The position numbers were made by a program, and so were the translations under genes. A stretch of 64,000 nt of DNA, from the NCBI GenBank assembly GCA_016871575.1, contig VHCW01000009.1, positions 1 through 64,000 of the forward strand. The letters run 5' to 3'. Positions 9,528 through 18,165 of this stretch are shown piece after piece. Source of the stretch: Verrucomicrobiota bacterium (GTDB taxonomy: Bacteria; Verrucomicrobiota; Verrucomicrobiia; Palsa-1439). The notes under the pieces are model-generated. The model was not told where the DNA came from. It did not search any database and was given only the letters and a program-made list of their open reading frames with translations. Position 1 is the stretch's first letter. The number at the start of each line of letters is the position of its first letter.

Positions 9528-10262
9528 GTGAGCACGCCCGACGCCACGAAGATCCCCCGCCACGTCGCCATCATCATGGACGGCAATGGTCGCTGGGCCA
9601 AGCAGCGCAGCCTGCCGCGGCTCGAAGGCCATCGCGCCGGCGCCGAGAGCGTGCGCGCCATCGTCCGCGCCTGCGGCGAACTCGGGATCGGCTATCTGAC
9701 GCTCTACGCGTTCTCCAGCGAGAACTGGCGACGCCCGAAAGCGGAGGTCACGGCGTTGATGGCCCTGCTGGAATTCTACCTGCAACGCGAAGTGGCGGAA
9801 CTGGACAAGAACAACGTCCGCCTCGCGGCCATCGGGCGGATCCATGAGCTTCCCGAAAGCGCCCAGCGCCAGCTCGACAAGAGCATCGAGGCGCTTCGCA
9901 AGAACACCGGCCTCACGCTCGTGCTCGCGCTCAGCTACGGCGGCCGCACCGAGATTGTGGACGCGGTCCGCAGCATCGCCCGCGATGCCAAGACCGGCGC
10001 GCTCGACATTGCCGACATCAACGAGGAACTGATCTCGCAGCGGCTTTACACGCGCGACATCCCCGATCCCGACCTGTTGGTGCGGACCAGCGGCGAGCTT
10101 CGCGTCAGCAATTTCCTGCTCTGGCAGATTTCCTACGCCGAAATCCACGTCACCGACACGCTCTGGCCTGATTTCCGCAAACCGCAACTGCTCGCCGCGC
10201 TTGACGACTACAGCAAACGCCAGCGCCGGTTCGGCCGCGTCGCCCCACTGGAGGGCAATTGA
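9528..10262 (+). CDS. uppS: Isoprenyl (undecaprenyl diphosphate) transferase
   Basis: A 244-residue cis-prenyltransferase that extends farnesyl diphosphate to the C55 lipid carrier used for peptidoglycan synthesis. 'VAIIMDGNGRWAKQR' carries the catalytic Asp (Asp18). 'LTLYAFSSENWRRP', 'LALSYGGRTEI' and 'PDPDLLVRTSGELRVSNFLLWQ' match the family. The GTG start at 9528 lies 1 nt after purA; upstream in-frame codons have no family similarity and overlap purA. Its stop overlaps the cdsA TTG start (TTGA). In many bacteria the next genes are cdsA, dxr and rseP; here the run is broken after cdsA. Confidence 0.95.
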   Translation: MSTPDATKIPRHVAIIMDGNGRWAKQRSLPRLEGHRAGAESVRAIVRACGELGIGYLTLYAFSSENWRRPKAEVTALMALLEFYLQREVAELDKNNVRLAAIGRIHELPESAQRQLDKSIEALRKNTGLTLVLALSYGGRTEIVDAVRSIARDAKTGALDIADINEELISQRLYTRDIPDPDLLVRTSGELRVSNFLLWQISYAEIHVTDTLWPDFRKPQLLAALDDYSKRQRRFGRVAPLEGN

Positions 10263-11197
10263 GCAATGGCGATGTAGCGGCGTCCGTCCCGGACGCTAAA
10301 TCCGAACAAGCCGCCGGGACCGCGGCCTCTACACCCCGCACCGGCTTTCGCTGGCGGCTGGTCAGTTCACTGGTGCTCTGGGGCATCATGCTCGCCGTCG
10401 TTTTCTGGCTGCCACCGACGGGGTTGTACGTGTTCATGAACATTGTCGTCGCGCTGGCTGTCTGGGAGTTCTACAAAATCTGCGAGGCGAAAGGGCTGCC
10501 GTCGTTCAAGATCTGGGGCGTCATCGGCACCGTGTCGTTGATTTCGGGAAGCTGGTTTTTCTTCGGCTCGCACCGCTTTGAGAAACTCTCGTACGACTTC
10601 GACATTGTCATCCTCATCGTTTTTGCCGTCGGCGTGTTTATCCGCCAATTCCCGCAGAAACTGAATCCGCGCGGCATCGAGACGATGGCGGTCACGCTGT
10701 TCGGCCTGATCTACGTCGGCTGGCTGGCCAACTTCATCACCCGCATCAACTTCGCCTATCGCCCGACGGAAGATGGCCGTTATTTCGTCATGTTGCTCGT
10801 GGTGGCCACCAAATTCACCGACATCGGCGCCTACCTTGTTGGCACCACCTTGGGACGCCATAAAATGATGCCGCGTCTCAGCCCGAAAAAAACATGGGAA
10901 GGCACCATCGGCGGCATCGTGCTTGCCGTCTTCGGTTCCCTGCTTTGTTGCCTGTGGCTCACGCCGGAAACGATGAAATTGCGCGGCGTGACTCCGACAC
11001 ACGCAGTCATCATCGGATTGTTGCTTGGCGTTGCCGCTGTGATCGGCGACCTCGCCGAGTCGCTCATCAAACGCGAAGCCGGCGTCAAGGACTCCAGCAA
11101 CGTCCTGCCCGGCCACGGCGGTTGCCTTGATATGATTGACAGTCTCCTCTTCACCGCGCCGTTGCTGTACGTCTATATGCGGCTCGTGCTGCCGTGA
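10259..11197 (+). CDS. cdsA: Phosphatidate cytidylyltransferase
   Basis: A 312-residue membrane enzyme making CDP-diacylglycerol from phosphatidate and CTP. Several hydrophobic helices are visible, and the C-terminal signature 'SLIKREAGVKDSSN' followed by 'LPGHGGCLDMIDSLLF' holds the metal-binding Asp. The start is TTG at 10259 overlapping the uppS stop; the nearby ATG at 10266 is out of frame and stops after two codons. The first 25 or so residues (Ala/Ser/Pro-rich) are encoded by a REP-like pair at 10273-10333, so this N-terminus looks acquired. The first membrane helix begins right after it. Last gene of the purA-uppS-cdsA unit. Confidence 0.93.
   Translation: MSNGDVAASVPDAKSEQAAGTAASTPRTGFRWRLVSSLVLWGIMLAVVFWLPPTGLYVFMNIVVALAVWEFYKICEAKGLPSFKIWGVIGTVSLISGSWFFFGSHRFEKLSYDFDIVILIVFAVGVFIRQFPQKLNPRGIETMAVTLFGLIYVGWLANFITRINFAYRPTEDGRYFVMLLVVATKFTDIGAYLVGTTLGRHKMMPRLSPKKTWEGTIGGIVLAVFGSLLCCLWLTPETMKLRGVTPTHAVIIGLLLGVAAVIGDLAESLIKREAGVKDSSNVLPGHGGCLDMIDSLLFTAPLLYVYMRLVLP
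10273..10333. repeat. REP-like inverted pair inside the cdsA N-terminus
   Basis: Bounded by TGTAG (10273-10277) and CTACA (10329-10333). Inside are GCGTCCG-TCC-CGGACGC (10280-10296) and the related half GCCGCCGGGACCGCGGC (10310-10326). The first half matches, with about two differences, the minus-strand monomer at 2089-2115. The two monomers face each other here and are back to back at 2089-2147. Confidence 0.65.
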
Positions 11198-11198
11198 T

Positions 11199-12185
11199 TC
11201 AGCCCAGCGCGACTGCGGCGAACGTGAAGTAAAACAACAGCGTAAAAATATCCGCCAACGCCAGCGTCACCGGCCCGGCGGCAATCTTCGGGTCCAGCCG
11301 CCGCGCGTGCAGCAAGGCCGGCACACTCAACCCCAGCAGGCACGCCGAGCACAACGACAACAAGATGCTCCCGCCAATCACCACCCCGGCCAAGCCATCG
11401 CCGCGCCACGCCCACACGATCAGTCCAACTGTCCCCCCGCAGGCTGCGCCCAGCAACAGCGCCGTCCCCAGTTCCCGCCGCAACTCGGTCGCATACCAAC
11501 GCAACGTCGGTCGCATCGTGCGCAACGCCTGGATCGTCACCGTCATGGATTGCATGCTGACACTCTCGCCGAGTCCCAGCACCAACGTGAGGAAAAACGC
11601 CAGCACAATGCTCTCGGCGATTGTGACGGCAAAAAAGCTGGCGAGCAGCGCGCAAAAGATGCCGCTGGCAACGGTGGGGACCAACCACGGAAACCGGACC
11701 CGGAACGCCCGCCACGGGGAGGCGTGCCGCACCTGCGAGACACGGAAGCCGATCGCTTCAAACAATTCGTCCATCTTCTCCCACTCGGCCAAGTCGAGCA
11801 CTTCCTCCGTGAACAAATTCACGTCCACCACCCCGACAATCCGTTGCTGTTCGTCCACCACGGGGAACGCCAGGAACTTGTGCATCACAAACAACTCGCA
11901 CGCATCAAAGATCGTGGCCGTGTGGTGGAGCGACACCACCCGCCGGCTCATGATTTCCGACAATGGCTGGCCGGGCTGCGCCGTCAGCAGCGCCCGCGTG
12001 GAGACCACGCCCACAAGCCGTTCTTCTTCATCCGCGACATAAAAGTAAATAATCCCCTCGCTGGGGATCCGTTGGCGGATCTGTTCCACTGCCTCCGAGA
12101 CTGTCAATGAGGCGCGCAACGACGCGACATCCTTGCGGACACGCGGCAGCACCGGCTCGGAAAAATGTTGGCCTCCTTCGAGCAT
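11199..12185 (-). CDS. MgtE-like magnesium transporter with CBS pair, lacking the N domain
   Basis: A 328-residue protein. Residues about 20-135 form two CBS domains ('IIYFYVADEEERLVGVVS', 'FLAFPVVDEQQRIVGVVD'). From about residue 175 there are five membrane helices of the MgtE type, including 'LGLGESVSMQSMTVTIQALR' in place of the usual glycine-rich pore segment, and 'DPKIAAGPVTLALADIF' near the end, with the Asp that lines the MgtE pore. The roughly 130-residue cytosolic N domain of classical MgtE is missing. Mg2+ or Co2+ transport is inferred from family. It is antiparallel to cdsA, with its stop 1 nt from the cdsA stop, and divergent from the large helicase gene. Confidence 0.8.
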   Translation of the reverse strand: MLEGGQHFSEPVLPRVRKDVASLRASLTVSEAVEQIRQRIPSEGIIYFYVADEEERLVGVVSTRALLTAQPGQPLSEIMSRRVVSLHHTATIFDACELFVMHKFLAFPVVDEQQRIVGVVDVNLFTEEVLDLAEWEKMDELFEAIGFRVSQVRHASPWRAFRVRFPWLVPTVASGIFCALLASFFAVTIAESIVLAFFLTLVLGLGESVSMQSMTVTIQALRTMRPTLRWYATELRRELGTALLLGAACGGTVGLIVWAWRGDGLAGVVIGGSILLSLCSACLLGLSVPALLHARRLDPKIAAGPVTLALADIFTLLFYFTFAAVALG

Positions 12186-12281: not shown

Positions 12282-15200
12282 ATGCCAAGCACACAAGAAC
12301 TCCTGGAATGCAGCCGGCGTGAGTTGCTGGATCTGTCCACGCGCAACCGGTTGCTCGCCGTGCCCGTGCAATCGAAGTCGGCGCGGATCGTCCAAGTTCA
12401 TGATGAGTTGAGCGAGCAGGTGTTCCGTCTCCTGGTCACCGACAAGAAGACGCTGAGTTTCTTGCCCGGTCGCGCCGGCGCGGATGCGGAGACGACGAAC
12501 GATGACGAAGTCGGTTTGCCGCAACCCGAAGAGGACGAGGCGCGCGACGCCAACACCGGCCTGCCGAAACGCCACATGGACGCGCGGCTCCAGACTGCGC
12601 TCACGCCGGAAGGCCTGCAGCGGCGGTTGCTGGCGCTGTTCCGCGACGCGCAGACCATCATGGAGGAACAGGGCGTCAACATCCTCTTCCTCGCGCTCGG
12701 CCAACTGAAATGGTTCGAGCGGGACCAGCCCGACACGCCCCGCTACGCGCCGTTGGTGCTCGTGCCGGTCGAGTTGCACCGCGACAGCGTCGCGGACCGG
12801 TTTCATCTGCACTGGCGGGAGGAGGACATCGAGGAAAACCTCTCGCTCGTGGCGAAACTCAAGACCGACTTCGACAGCACATTGCCGGAGTTCCCGTCGG
12901 AGGAGGAGTTCAGCGTGGACCGCTACTGCGCAGCCGTGGCGCAGGCCGTGGCCGGGATGACGAGTTGGGAGGTCTTGCCGAACGCGGTCGTGCTCGGCTT
13001 CTTCTCGTTCGCAAAGTTTCTCATGTACCGCGACCTCGACCCGGCCAACTGGCCGGATGGCGAGAAGCTGCTGCGCGACCCGTTCCTGACCGCGCTGCTG
13101 CAGGACGGATTTCCGGCGGCAGAACCGATTTTTCCAGACGATGCGCCCCTGGACGCGCTGATCCCCGCCGCGCGCCTTGATCACGTTGTGGACAGCGACA
13201 GCTCGCAGACACAGGCCATCGAACTGGTCCGACAAGGACGGAGCGTTGTCGTCCAAGGCCCGCCCGGCACCGGCAAGAGCCAATCCATCACCAACATCAT
13301 CGCCGCCGCGGTGCTCGACGGGAAACGCGTGCTGTTCGTCGCCGAGAAACTGGCCGCGCTCGAAGTCGTGAAACGCCGGCTGGAGCGCGAAGGGCTTGGC
13401 CCGCTCTGCCTCGAACTGCACAGCAACAAGGCGAACAAGCGCGCCGTGATCGAGGAGATCGGGCGGACGTGGAAACTGGGTCGTCCCCGCTCGTCGGACC
13501 TGGAAGCGTTGGTGCCGAAGCTCGAAGAGAGCCGGACCGTGCTGAACCGCCACGCCGCGTCACTCCACGAACAACTCTCGCCGAGCGGACTGAGCGCGTT
13601 CGCCATCGTCGGGCAATTGACGGCGCTCGGTGAACGCGGCGCGGAAGCGTCGGGACTCGTTTTCACCGGGGCCGAGAGCTGGACGCCGGAGCAGCGCGCC
13701 GAGCGGCGGCGGCTGATTGAGGAACTGGTCGAGCGGATCGGGCAGATTGGCGTGCCCGCCCAACATCCGTGGCGCGGCGCGTGCCGGGGAACGGTGCTGC
13801 GGATTGATCTCGAACCGCTGGCCGCGTGCATCCGCACATTGCGCGACCGGCTCGCCGCGATGCGCGAGACTTCGCAATCGCTGGCAACGACGATCTCCCA
13901 GTATCCGCCGTCCACGCTGACGCTCACCGGGGACCAACAGGTCATCGCCGGGCTTGTTGCCAGCGCGCCGACGCTGGACAAGTCAGCGTTGTGTCAGGGC
14001 GTCTGGAGCACGGGGCTGGCCGGGCTGCGCGACTTGGTCGCCAGCGGACGGTTGTACGCGGAGACGATCTCGGCGCTCGGCAGCCGCGTGACGGCGCCCA
14101 CTTGGGAACAGGATTTCTCCGGTGTCCGTTCACACATCGCGGCGCACGGCAAGTCGTGGCTCCGGTTCCTGAACGGCAACTACCGTCGCGCCCTGGCTGA
14201 GTTGCGCGGTGTGCTGACCGGCGAATTGCCCGGCGGGTTTACCGAGCGGCTGGCGTTGGTGGACCAGATCGTAGCGGGCCAACGCGCGTTGCGTGTCGTG
14301 CGCGGAGCCGACGGGCAGTCGGCATTCGGCGCATTGTGGCAGCGCGAGAAGTCCGACTGGGCGAAGCTGGAAGCCGTTGTGAACTGGGTCAGCCGGCAAG
14401 CCGAGGCCGGGCTGGACGAATCGTTCCGTCGGATGTTCGTGGGCGTACAGGACACGGCGTTGGTCGGGCGTCTGGCGGAGACGCTTGCCGGGCAACTTGC
14501 CGGGGTGCGGGAGGCGGCGGCGCAGGTTGTGAGCGATCTGGCGTTGGACTGCGGCGCGGCCTTTGGCGTGGCGAAGATCGAGGACGTGCCGCTTGATGCG
14601 CTCGCGCAACGGTGCAGCGTGTGGCTGGCGGACATGGAATCGTTGTCGAAGTGGAACAGCTACTTCGTGCGCGCCCGCCGCTCGCGGGAACTCGGCTTGG
14701 GGCCGCTCGTGGACCGCATGGAACAAGGCAACGCGCCGGCGCTGGATTGTTTCGACCGGATCTATTTCAGCCAGATGCTGCGCGAGGTGGCGCGACTGAA
14801 ACCGGAGTTGATGCAGTTCGACGGCGTGTTGCACGAGCGTCGGATTGCCGAGTTTCGGCAGCTCGACCGCGACCGCCTGACGCTGGCGAAGCTGCGGACG
14901 TTGCTGGCGCACAGCCAGCGGATGCCGGCGTCGAATTCGGGCGTCGGCGCGACGGGGCTGGTGAAGAGCGAGATGGAGCGAAAGCGCGGCCACCGCACCG
15001 TCCGTCGGTTGCTCAAGGACGCGGGGTCGGTCGTGCAGGCGATCAAGCCGGTGTTCATGATGAGTCCGTTGTCGGTGGCGCAATACTTGGAGCCGGGGGC
15101 GATTGAGTTTGATTTGTTGGTCGTGGACGAGGCCAGCCAGGTGCAACCGGTGGATGCGCTGGGGGCGATTGCGCGCTGCAAGCAGATCGTCGTGGTCGGC

Positions 15201-16985
15201 GACAGCAAGCAATTACCGCCGACCCGGTTCTTCGCGCGCCTGACCTCGGAGGCTGGGGATGACGAGGTCGAGGAATCGCAGGCGGCGGAGGTGAAGGACA
15301 TCGAGAGCATCCTCGGCCTCTGCTGTGCGCGCGGGCTGCCGCAGACGATGTTGCGCTGGCATTACCGCAGCCGGCACCACACGCTCATCGCGGTGTCGAA
15401 CCACGAGTTCTACGAGGACCGTTTGGTCATCATTCCCAGCCCGCACTCGGCGGCGGCAGGGCTGGGGCTGAAGTTTCATCACATTCCCGAAGGCGTTTTC
15501 GACAGCGGCGCCTCCGGCACGAACCGCGTGGAGGCGAAGGCAGTCTGCCGGGCGGTCATCGAGCACGCGCGGCGGACGCCGGAGTTGAGCCTCGGCGTGG
15601 CGGCGTTCTCGGTGCGCCAGCAACAGGCGATCCTCGACGAACTCGAACTGCTCCGGCGCGAGAACCCGGAGACGGAGCCGTTCTTCAACGACCACGCGAC
15701 GGAACCGTTCTTCGTCAAGAACCTCGAGAACGTGCAGGGCGACGAGCGCGACGTCATTTTCATCTCGGTCGGCTACGGGCGCGACGTGCGCGGGTTCCTC
15801 GCGATGCGTTTCGGGCCATTGAGCAACGAGGGCGGTGAGCGGCGCTTGAACGTATTGATCTCGCGCGCAAAGAAACGCTGCGAGGTCTTCTCCTCGATCA
15901 CCGCCGACGAGATTGATTTGGAACGCGCGTCGGGACGCGGCGTGCAGGCGTTGAAGACGTTCCTCGGTTTCGCCCAGACGGGCCGTCTCGATGTCGCGGC
16001 GGCTGCCAGCCAGGAGAAGCCGTCGCAGTTTGAGGAGGCAGTGCGCAAGGCGGTCGCGTCGCTCGGTTACGAGGCGCACCCGCAAGTGGGGATTGCCGGG
16101 TGTTTCATTGATCTGGCGGTGGTGGACCGAGAACGCGAAGGGCGTTACCTGCTCGGCATCGAGTGCGACGGCCCGGCGTATCATGCCTCCCGATCGGCGC
16201 GTGACCGCGACCGTCTCCGTCAGGCCGTGCTGGAGGACCACGGCTGGATCATCCACCGGATCTGGAGCACCGACTGGTTTCAGCGTCCCGCCGAGCAACT
16301 CCGCAAAGTGGCCGAGGCGATTGAACGCGCGAAAGTCGCGCTGGCCGAGAAGACGCCGCCCCCCAGCGTCAAAGCCGAGGAGACCATCGAGCGCGAAACC
16401 ACCCTGGCGGTGGACGCGGGCGGGCTGAACGCGTTGTCCACGCCGTACAAGATGGCGCGCCTCGCCGTGCCGCGGAATCGCGACCCGCACGAGCTGGCGA
16501 CGCGCGAGCTGGCCGACATGCTTTTCATGGTGGTCGAAGAGGAAGGCCCGATCCACGAGGACGAACTGGTCGTCCGTGTGCGCGACCTCTGGAACCTCCA
16601 GCGCGCTGGCGCCCGTGTTCAGGATGCGGTGGCGCGGGGCGTGCGCTCGCTGCTGGTCACCCAACGCTGCGTGCGCGAGGACGGCTTCCTGTCGTTACCC
16701 GGCGCAGCCGTTCCAGTCCGCAACCGCAAAGATGCGGACTCCGCCACACTGCGAAAGCCTGACATGCTTCCGCCAGCCGAGATTCGCGCGGCAATCCTGG
16801 CGTTGATTGATGCCCACCACGGCGCCACGGTCAGGGAGACACCCGTCGCAGTGGCCCGGATTCTCGGCTTCAAGACGACCAGCGGACCGTTGCGGGCGGT
16901 GATCGAAGCGCAGATTGCGCGGTTGGTCCAGCTTGGCGCGCTTCAGGAAACGGAGGAAATGCTCCGTCGCAGCGTAAAAGCTTGA
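12282..16985 (+). CDS. DUF4011 helicase with Vsr/MTES-like nuclease and DUF3320 domains (putative defence protein)
   Basis: A 1567-residue multidomain protein. The N-terminus ('LLDLSTRNRLL', 'ILFLALGQLKWFE', 'APLVLVPVEL') is DUF4011. A superfamily-1 helicase core follows: Walker A GPPGTGKS (326-333), Walker B 'VVDEAS' (Asp949, Glu950), 'VVVGDSKQLPP', 'VQGDERDVIFISVG' and 'LNVLISRAKKRCEVF'. Residues about 1250-1340 resemble a Vsr/REase-MTES nuclease ('FEEAV', 'CFIDLAVV', 'LGIECDGPAYH'), and about 1390-1480 fit DUF3320. The ATG at 12282 was chosen because DUF4011 begins immediately; an in-frame GTG at 12261 is less likely. From memory, single-protein DUF4011-helicase-Vsr proteins occur in anti-phage systems (Hhe type). 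No HEPN gene or methylase sits nearby. Domains are clear; the defence role is inference. Confidence 0.85.
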   Translation: MPSTQELLECSRRELLDLSTRNRLLAVPVQSKSARIVQVHDELSEQVFRLLVTDKKTLSFLPGRAGADAETTNDDEVGLPQPEEDEARDANTGLPKRHMDARLQTALTPEGLQRRLLALFRDAQTIMEEQGVNILFLALGQLKWFERDQPDTPRYAPLVLVPVELHRDSVADRFHLHWREEDIEENLSLVAKLKTDFDSTLPEFPSEEEFSVDRYCAAVAQAVAGMTSWEVLPNAVVLGFFSFAKFLMYRDLDPANWPDGEKLLRDPFLTALLQDGFPAAEPIFPDDAPLDALIPAARLDHVVDSDSSQTQAIELVRQGRSVVVQGPPGTGKSQSITNIIAAAVLDGKRVLFVAEKLAALEVVKRRLEREGLGPLCLELHSNKANKRAVIEEIGRTWKLGRPRSSDLEALVPKLEESRTVLNRHAASLHEQLSPSGLSAFAIVGQLTALGERGAEASGLVFTGAESWTPEQRAERRRLIEELVERIGQIGVPAQHPWRGACRGTVLRIDLEPLAACIRTLRDRLAAMRETSQSLATTISQYPPSTLTLTGDQQVIAGLVASAPTLDKSALCQGVWSTGLAGLRDLVASGRLYAETISALGSRVTAPTWEQDFSGVRSHIAAHGKSWLRFLNGNYRRALAELRGVLTGELPGGFTERLALVDQIVAGQRALRVVRGADGQSAFGALWQREKSDWAKLEAVVNWVSRQAEAGLDESFRRMFVGVQDTALVGRLAETLAGQLAGVREAAAQVVSDLALDCGAAFGVAKIEDVPLDALAQRCSVWLADMESLSKWNSYFVRARRSRELGLGPLVDRMEQGNAPALDCFDRIYFSQMLREVARLKPELMQFDGVLHERRIAEFRQLDRDRLTLAKLRTLLAHSQRMPASNSGVGATGLVKSEMERKRGHRTVRRLLKDAGSVVQAIKPVFMMSPLSVAQYLEPGAIEFDLLVVDEASQVQPVDALGAIARCKQIVVVGDSKQLPPTRFFARLTSEAGDDEVEESQAAEVKDIESILGLCCARGLPQTMLRWHYRSRHHTLIAVSNHEFYEDRLVIIPSPHSAAAGLGLKFHHIPEGVFDSGASGTNRVEAKAVCRAVIEHARRTPELSLGVAAFSVRQQQAILDELELLRRENPETEPFFNDHATEPFFVKNLENVQGDERDVIFISVGYGRDVRGFLAMRFGPLSNEGGERRLNVLISRAKKRCEVFSSITADEIDLERASGRGVQALKTFLGFAQTGRLDVAAAASQEKPSQFEEAVRKAVASLGYEAHPQVGIAGCFIDLAVVDREREGRYLLGIECDGPAYHASRSARDRDRLRQAVLEDHGWIIHRIWSTDWFQRPAEQLRKVAEAIERAKVALAEKTPPPSVKAEETIERETTLAVDAGGLNALSTPYKMARLAVPRNRDPHELATRELADMLFMVVEEEGPIHEDELVVRVRDLWNLQRAGARVQDAVARGVRSLLVTQRCVREDGFLSLPGAAVPVRNRKDADSATLRKPDMLPPAEIRAAILALIDAHHGATVRETPVAVARILGFKTTSGPLRAVIEAQIARLVQLGALQETEEMLRRSVKA

Positions 16986-17010: not shown

Positions 17011-17022
17011 GCGCCCGTTTTG

Positions 17023-18165
17023 ATGAAACCCAAGAACATCGTCCTGCTCGGTTGCACTGGCTCCATTGGCGTCAGTACGCAAAAAGTCGTCGCCGATCTG
17101 CCGGAACATTTCCGGCTCATTGGCATCGCGGCGCGCGGCGGCGTTGACGGCGCGGAGAAGGCATTCCGCCAGTTCAAGCCGAAGACGGTTGCCATGACCA
17201 ACCACTCGAAGGCCAAGGAACTCGAAACGCGCATTGGCCAGCCGGTGCTGACAGGCGAGCGCGGCCTCGTCGAACTCGCCACGATGCCGGAAGCCGATGT
17301 CGTGCTCATCGCCATCGTCGGCACGGCGGGCCTCGAACCGGCGCTGGCGGCGATTCGGGCGGGGAAAGACTTGGCGGTCGCGTCGAAGGAAATCCTCGTG
17401 ATGGCCGGTGAACTCGTGATGAGCGAGGCGCGCAAGCACGGCGTGAAGGTGTTGCCGGTGGACAGCGAGCACAGCGCGATTTACCAGTGCCTCGAAGGCC
17501 GCGATCCGGCCGACGTGAAACGATTGATTCTCACGGCGTCAGGCGGGCCGTTCCGGCAGACGCCGCGCGAGCAGTTCGAGCAGATCACAGTCGAACAGGC
17601 GCTGAAACATCCAAGCTGGAACATGGGCCAGAAAATCACGATTGACTCGGCCACGCTGTTCAACAAGGGCCTTGAGATGATCGAGGCGCGCTGGCTCTTC
17701 AACATCGAGATTGATCGCGTGGACGTGGTGGTGCATCCGCAAAGCGTCATTCACTCGATGGTCGAGTTCCGCGATGGCTCGATTCTCGCGCAACTCAGCG
17801 TGCCGGACATGCGTTATCCGATCCAATACGCGCTCACCTGCCCCCGCCGGTTGCCGAACTCGATTCCGCCGACCGACCTCGCCAAGATCGCCGCGCTCAC
17901 CTTCGAGATGCCGGACCCGGGCAAGTTCACGTCGTTGCGGCTGGCGCGCGAAGCGGGACGCGCCTGCGGCACGATGCCGGCGGTGTTCAACGCGGCCAAC
18001 GAAGTCGCCGTGGCCCGGTTCGTGGACCGCCAGATTCAGTTCACGCAGATCTTCGAGACCGTCGAAAAGGTGATGGGGGCGCATCGCGTGGTTGCGTCGC
18101 CGTCGTTGGACGCTATATTGGAGGCCGACCAATGGGCCAGAAAGGAAGCAGCGCGTGTCATTTGA
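17023..18165 (+). CDS. dxr: 1-deoxy-D-xylulose 5-phosphate reductoisomerase
   Basis: A 380-residue NADPH- and metal-dependent enzyme making 2-C-methyl-D-erythritol 4-phosphate, the committed MEP-pathway step. 'LLGCTGSIGVSTQKV' is the NADPH-binding start, 'ASKEILVMAGELV' and 'VLPVDSEHSAIYQCL' carry the substrate and metal residues (Asp-Ser-Glu-His), and 'LTASGGPFR', 'HPSWNMGQKITIDSATLFNKG' (in two parts) and 'HPQSVIHSMVEF' complete the family signature. Start ATG 17023; a TTG just before it would add one residue. The end overlaps rseP by 11 nt. This is the second half of the conserved uppS-cdsA-dxr-rseP group. Confidence 0.96.
   Translation: MKPKNIVLLGCTGSIGVSTQKVVADLPEHFRLIGIAARGGVDGAEKAFRQFKPKTVAMTNHSKAKELETRIGQPVLTGERGLVELATMPEADVVLIAIVGTAGLEPALAAIRAGKDLAVASKEILVMAGELVMSEARKHGVKVLPVDSEHSAIYQCLEGRDPADVKRLILTASGGPFRQTPREQFEQITVEQALKHPSWNMGQKITIDSATLFNKGLEMIEARWLFNIEIDRVDVVVHPQSVIHSMVEFRDGSILAQLSVPDMRYPIQYALTCPRRLPNSIPPTDLAKIAALTFEMPDPGKFTSLRLAREAGRACGTMPAVFNAANEVAVARFVDRQIQFTQIFETVEKVMGAHRVVASPSLDAILEADQWARKEAARVI

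Follow-up and report, generated by a model that had tools for sequence, protein, structure and literature searches.

The stretch of DNA analysed here, called the window in the following, comprises 64,000 nucleotides of a Verrucomicrobiota genome, in which the genes purA, uppS, cdsA, an mgtE-like gene on the minus strand, the gene under study, dxr, rseP and ispG follow one another. The gene under study (12282..16985; positions are those of the window and on the plus strand unless stated otherwise) is an open reading frame without internal stop codons and encodes a protein of 1567 amino acids with DUF4011, helicase, nuclease and DUF3320 parts, which is PDC-S37/ProA-like and of the short-arm form described below. 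The upstream edge of the site is formed by cdsA (10259..11197, assigned by domain annotation) and the downstream edge by dxr (17020..18165), which follows the gene after a spacer of 34 bp, a junction that is common to the sister species.

Domain content and state of the protein

In a Pfam HMM search all domains of the protein exceeded their curated cut-offs and were found in the order DUF4011 (PF13195, 142 bits; residues 14-193, 12321..12860), a split helicase part of AAA_11/AAA_30 type that starts at about residue 303 and continues with a second piece at residues 940-981, the second RecA domain AAA_12 (PF13087; residues 1018-1203, 15333..15890), an MTES_1575 or Vsr-type nuclease (PF18741, 118.7 bits; residues 1250-1347, 16029..16322) and DUF3320 (PF11784, 51 bits; residues 1401-1448, 16482..16625), which was described as a winged-helix-type region (PMC3710099). 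The helicase carries motif I, GPPGTGKS (residues 326-333, 13257..13280), which is invariant among homologues, motif II, DEAS (residues 949-952, 15126..15137), assigned by motif reading and homologue conservation, as well as GDSKQLPP (973), GDERD (1153) and the arginine motif LISRAKKR (1192). Across 62 homologues the helicase motifs are invariant or nearly so, and the same holds for the acidic residues E1251, D1277, E1294 and D1296 of the nuclease. The original prediction, made by reading the letters of the window, had named a DUF4011 part, an SF1 helicase, a Vsr/MTES-like nuclease and DUF3320 and had regarded the helicase motifs and the nuclease acidic residues as intact, and both readings hold. 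In a Foldseek search, the top PDB neighbours of the helicase were Setx, Aquarius, Upf1, Sen1, Ighmbp2 and Dna2; showing both the SF1 motifs and a UPF1-like fold, it is a UPF1-like SF1 helicase that is split by a helical arm.

Comparison with the copy of the sister species resulted in a dN/dS of about 0.10 for the overall protein and of 0.03 for the second half of the helicase, values that are similar to or below those of the core neighbours and by which the protein is judged to be under strong purifying selection. Together with the conserved motifs and nuclease residues, this low dN/dS shows that it is a working protein. An inactive remnant hitch-hiking in the core operon, for which the isolation of the copy without partner genes could be brought forward, is very improbable in view of the intact reading frame, the conserved catalytic residues and the dN/dS of about 0.1 between the species. 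The synonymous divergence between window and sister is higher for the gene (pS 0.66) than for the flanking core genes (0.38-0.48), and the sister copy has a GC3 of 0.62 compared to 0.79 in the sister's dxr. This may reflect the exchange of a part or all of the gene by allele replacement, or a differing codon usage.

Insertion between cdsA and dxr

In the sister species, represented by the only further genome of this genus, the order purA-uppS-cdsA-[gene]-dxr-rseP-ispG is found without mgtE. On the same strand as these two neighbours, the sister copy is separated from cdsA by 84 bp and from dxr by 37 bp, and the gene-dxr junctions of both species align closely around the stop codon. For other genera of the family, a search with dxr found the locus in eight genomes, six of which carry cdsA as well as dxr on the stretch read, and a homologue of the gene is absent from the cdsA-dxr site in all six. 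In three of them the distance between cdsA and dxr amounts to 3, 3 and about 84 bp (L025, L026 and L027), and in the other three a gap of 0.6-1.7 kb holds unrelated content. A homologue search of nine other genomes of the family found none, except for a distant partial match in one of them (G003). The simplest reading of these gene orders is that the gene was inserted once, ahead of the split between the two species of the genus, and the claim of the original prediction that it was inserted between uppS-cdsA and dxr-rseP is borne out by the empty sites in the relatives. Universal presence at this place in the clade, with slow evolution and a nuclease motif that is not conserved, had been named as speaking against that prediction; both species of the genus do carry the gene at the site, yet the remaining family members lack it and the nuclease motif is conserved. 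The cdsA-dxr junction seems to accept insertions repeatedly.

The mgtE-like gene (11199..12185, minus strand) lacks the N domain, its match covering model positions 143-446 of 450, and is divergent from the gene under study, with 96 bp in between. It had been grouped with the insertion, which does not stand, because the sister species carries the gene without mgtE; either the window lineage acquired mgtE in a separate event or the sister lost it. As a partner of the gene it was rejected as well, as no match was found at the sister locus or at the family loci read. By eye, an ORF between cdsA and dxr in one relative (L021 3661-4405) is nitrilase-like, and an ORF of 575 residues at the same place in another (L022 3904-5634) apparently encodes a membrane protein.

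Family, distribution and probable function

The PADLOC model PDC-S37 (PDLC05009) matches the protein over its full length with 1839 bits (residues 4-1563 to model positions 6-1546 of 1550); the protein is of the same length class and differs from the family in none of the tested features. PDC-S37 is a candidate family only (PDC), its model covers long-arm forms too, and a literature search on PDC-S37 and ProA found no experiment on any PDC-S37 protein in the accessible papers. The NCBIfam model of the anti-phage protein ProA (NF058533) gives 1493.8 bits (residues 7-1531 to model positions 359-1902), 6 bits short of its curated cut-off of 1500, the protein being without the N-terminal approximately 358 residues of the model. 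The nearest homologues pass this cut-off with 1504-1644 bits, and a full ProA of the same class (L037, 2108 bits) has the extra N-terminal part, so that the protein of the window corresponds to its last four fifths. The N-terminal part of this ProA-type homologue (L037 6247-7416, minus strand) comprises 390 residues without a Pfam match and is transglutaminase-like by eye. Hhe proteins likewise unite DUF4011, an SF1 helicase and a nuclease in one protein; however, the NCBIfam score of 1012.6 bits (NF042953) reaches only about half of the curated cut-off of 2000, the PADLOC model PDLC02194 gives 763.9 bits, the best match is confined to the helicase-nuclease part, and identity with Hhe was rejected. 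The kinship to anti-phage families that had been suspected for the gene is thus correct, but not the assignment to the Hhe type: judged by these model matches, its nearest named family is PDC-S37/ProA, and the gene adds one more protein to an already known kind of family.

For MTES_1575-type giant proteins, of the architecture HEPN-transglutaminase-SF1 helicase-Vsr-2 wHTH, a direct recognition of invading DNA that needs no modification enzyme has been proposed (PMC3710099). They share the SF1 helicase, the Vsr-type nuclease and the DUF3320 winged helix with the protein of the window, whereas neither a HEPN nor a transglutaminase domain was detected in the latter.

Homologues are scattered over several phyla. 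A scan of named genomes located 71 loci, which belong to Verrucomicrobiota, Acidobacteriota, Pseudomonadota and a Nitrospirota MAG whose homologue shares 69% identity across 86% of the length; class-wide, 98 of 384 genomes contain any match and about ten a full-length one. The Acidobacteriota are separated into two groups in the homologue tree, of which one lies among Verrucomicrobiota. Matches were also found in 427 plasmid records, 16 of them over most of the length. In Tistrella mobilis (L111) and Mesorhizobium sp. WSM3860 (L121) the homologue is split into two ORFs, by frameshift or decay.

A PADLOC scan of the 48 other ORFs of the window resulted in no more than two isolated hits, one of CARF/LolE type and one to mad2; a defence island within the window was rejected, in agreement with the earlier description of the gene as isolated from other defence genes. 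In P. aeruginosa, a DUF4011 gene that borders a defence hotspot is core in every isolate examined (PMC10250203), which makes a gene standing alone among essential genes less odd. Pooled over the neighbourhoods of 14 homologue loci, and not assigned to single loci, defence-type matches to SspH, LmuB, HEC-09, MTase_II and PD-Lambda-2_B were found. Where annotated, full-length plasmid homologues are accompanied by SIR2 (L132), by DUF4297 and DUF87 (L133), by two DUF262 genes (L134) and by a RecD-like helicase and a WYL protein (L128). The position of plasmid homologues beside genes of defence type supports a defence role of the family, though the copy in the window is isolated.

Taken as a whole, we consider it probable, at roughly 70%, that the gene encodes a single-gene anti-phage defence protein of PDC-S37/ProA type, which was acquired once at the cdsA-dxr site before the two species of the genus split and was kept since. 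The retention in the core operon of both species suits a housekeeping role too, i.e., a domesticated protein for DNA repair, R-loop removal or plasmid clearance that is co-transcribed with isoprenoid/envelope genes. The common site and low dN/dS in both species, the operon-like spacing on the same strand in the sister, the UPF1/Dna2-like fold and the core status of the P. aeruginosa gene (PMC10250203) would agree with such a role. It is nevertheless unlikely, as the nine other genomes of the family manage without the gene, its distribution across the class is patchy, plasmid homologues adjoin known defence genes and conservation of the arm falls far below that of the remaining protein, which is unusual for a housekeeping enzyme. 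The locus offers a clear example of a defence candidate that stands alone, has become fixed within a core operon and can be compared with an empty site.

For such a defence protein, the UPF1-like helicase would load onto DNA of foreign origin, or onto an aberrant intermediate of single-stranded or forked structure, and then translocate, recognition of the target or gating of the enzyme would be the task of the variable arm and of the winged-helix-type region at the C-terminus, and the Vsr-type nuclease would cut the DNA. UPF1-like helicases include RNA enzymes (Setx, Aquarius and Upf1, next to Dna2), so that RNA might be the substrate as well. The CnuH helicases of CoCoNuT systems, UPF1-like enzymes with a predicted action on RNA, contain a large insertion of helices downstream of Walker A and are fused to a Vsr-like effector in type III-B (PMC11090510). 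These likenesses, and the predominance of RNA helicases among the best fold neighbours in the PDB, speak for a CoCoNuT-like system with a helicase acting on RNA and a Vsr-like nuclease that cuts it. In contrast to CoCoNuTs, the window holds a single gene with DUF4011 and DUF3320, and partners of the McrB-type GTPase or McrC type were recognised neither among the near neighbours (Pfam) nor among the other ORFs of the window (PADLOC). Moreover, the fold neighbours include Dna2 as well, and the best-known members of the Vsr-type nucleases are DNA enzymes. Targeting of RNA is accordingly quite unlikely, and translocation along DNA coupled to cutting by the C-terminal nuclease is the favoured mechanism.

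A helical arm of variable length and tip

Between helicase motifs Ia and II, an all-helical arm of about 450 residues (approximately 441-890, 13602..14951) is predicted by AlphaFold2 with a mean pLDDT of 81.6, a feature overlooked in the original prediction. Its conservation across the family is low, and the helicase region reaches its minimum of conservation within this stretch. According to the homologue alignment, it contains an ascending segment (residues 487-556, 13740..13949) and a descending segment (residues 728-800, 14463..14681), both present in a single copy in the window and duplicated in long forms, with the tip in between (residues 557-727, 13950..14462).

Homologues comprise either about 1560-1625 or 1810-1900 residues, with 1727 for the sister copy. 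Long and short forms differ by two inserts, near residues 544 and 714-742 of the window protein, that flank the tip, and 73 of 73 homologues have both inserts or neither, the window protein being short. The sizes of the inserts as pairs are (72,72) residues in the sister, (104,132) in L066, (118,157) in L075 and about (118,145) in a large Pseudomonadota clade. A quick likelihood tree, calculated with the arm columns left out and without bootstrap, requires four changes of the arm state, and since all deep branches carry the short arm, about four independent gains, always paired, are the simplest count.

Each insert resembles the adjoining segment of the arm. In the sister copy, residues 489-560 match 562-632 (44%) and residues 806-860 match 873-927 (42%); in L066, 516-620 pair with 624-724 and 770-902 with 893-1033. 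These repeats were sought with fragments, as a plain self-BLAST masks repeats lying inside the self-match, and fragment BLAST found no internal repeat in the window protein itself. Compared to the arm of the window, the outer copies of the sister arm are 59-63% identical and the inner copies 41-47%. In the predicted structure of the long sister arm the outward helices repeat (208-238 and 247-266, then 281-311 and 319-333, in model numbering), as do the return helices (500-527, then the second half of 546-595). A search for structural neighbours of the long arm gave weak and uninformative matches to SMC/MukB-type coils only. We infer that the arm is a two-stranded antiparallel structure with a tip, the strand packing being predicted, which is lengthened by nested duplication.

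Between window and sister the tip is 45-47% identical, compared to 91% for the helicase. Homologue pairs with 90-93% identical helicases have tips with an average identity of 71% (sd 10), and the value for window and sister (45%) is the lowest among 28 such pairs. Nor does the sister tip resemble that of any other homologue more closely (41-47%). For the inner cassette of the sister the GC3 is 0.51, whereas the remainder of the gene has 0.64 (p 0.0002 by block permutation), and the stretch of low GC3 extends past the inner cassette into the outer descending segment. These data fit a replacement of the tip by the whole arm of an unsampled homologue, which would have brought in both inserts at once; alternatively, the tip may have diverged fast following duplication.

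For the exchange reading, an incoming arm with ascending strand, tip and descending strand from another family member would replace the resident tip, giving a matched pair of segments plus a new tip, and the arm would be diversified through cassette exchange, comparable to restriction specificity subunits. The wider idea that the arm is a telescoping, exchangeable module, in which one recombination swaps the resident tip for a whole new arm and which senses phage or the state of the DNA, is tentative, and we hold it to be possible rather than probable. Paired growth of the arm matters more than the placement of the gene: if the arm lengthens only on both strands together, and repeatedly with a new tip, it would be a good candidate for the sensor in a group of DUF4011 defence proteins.

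The sister copy (L007 7466-12649, also L081 4320-9500) is 160 residues longer than the window protein by means of its longer arm, next to its divergent tip and lower GC3. Another long-arm homologue (L106) has about 160 extra residues at its C-terminus, which by eye look like a domain of Schlafen/AlbA type.
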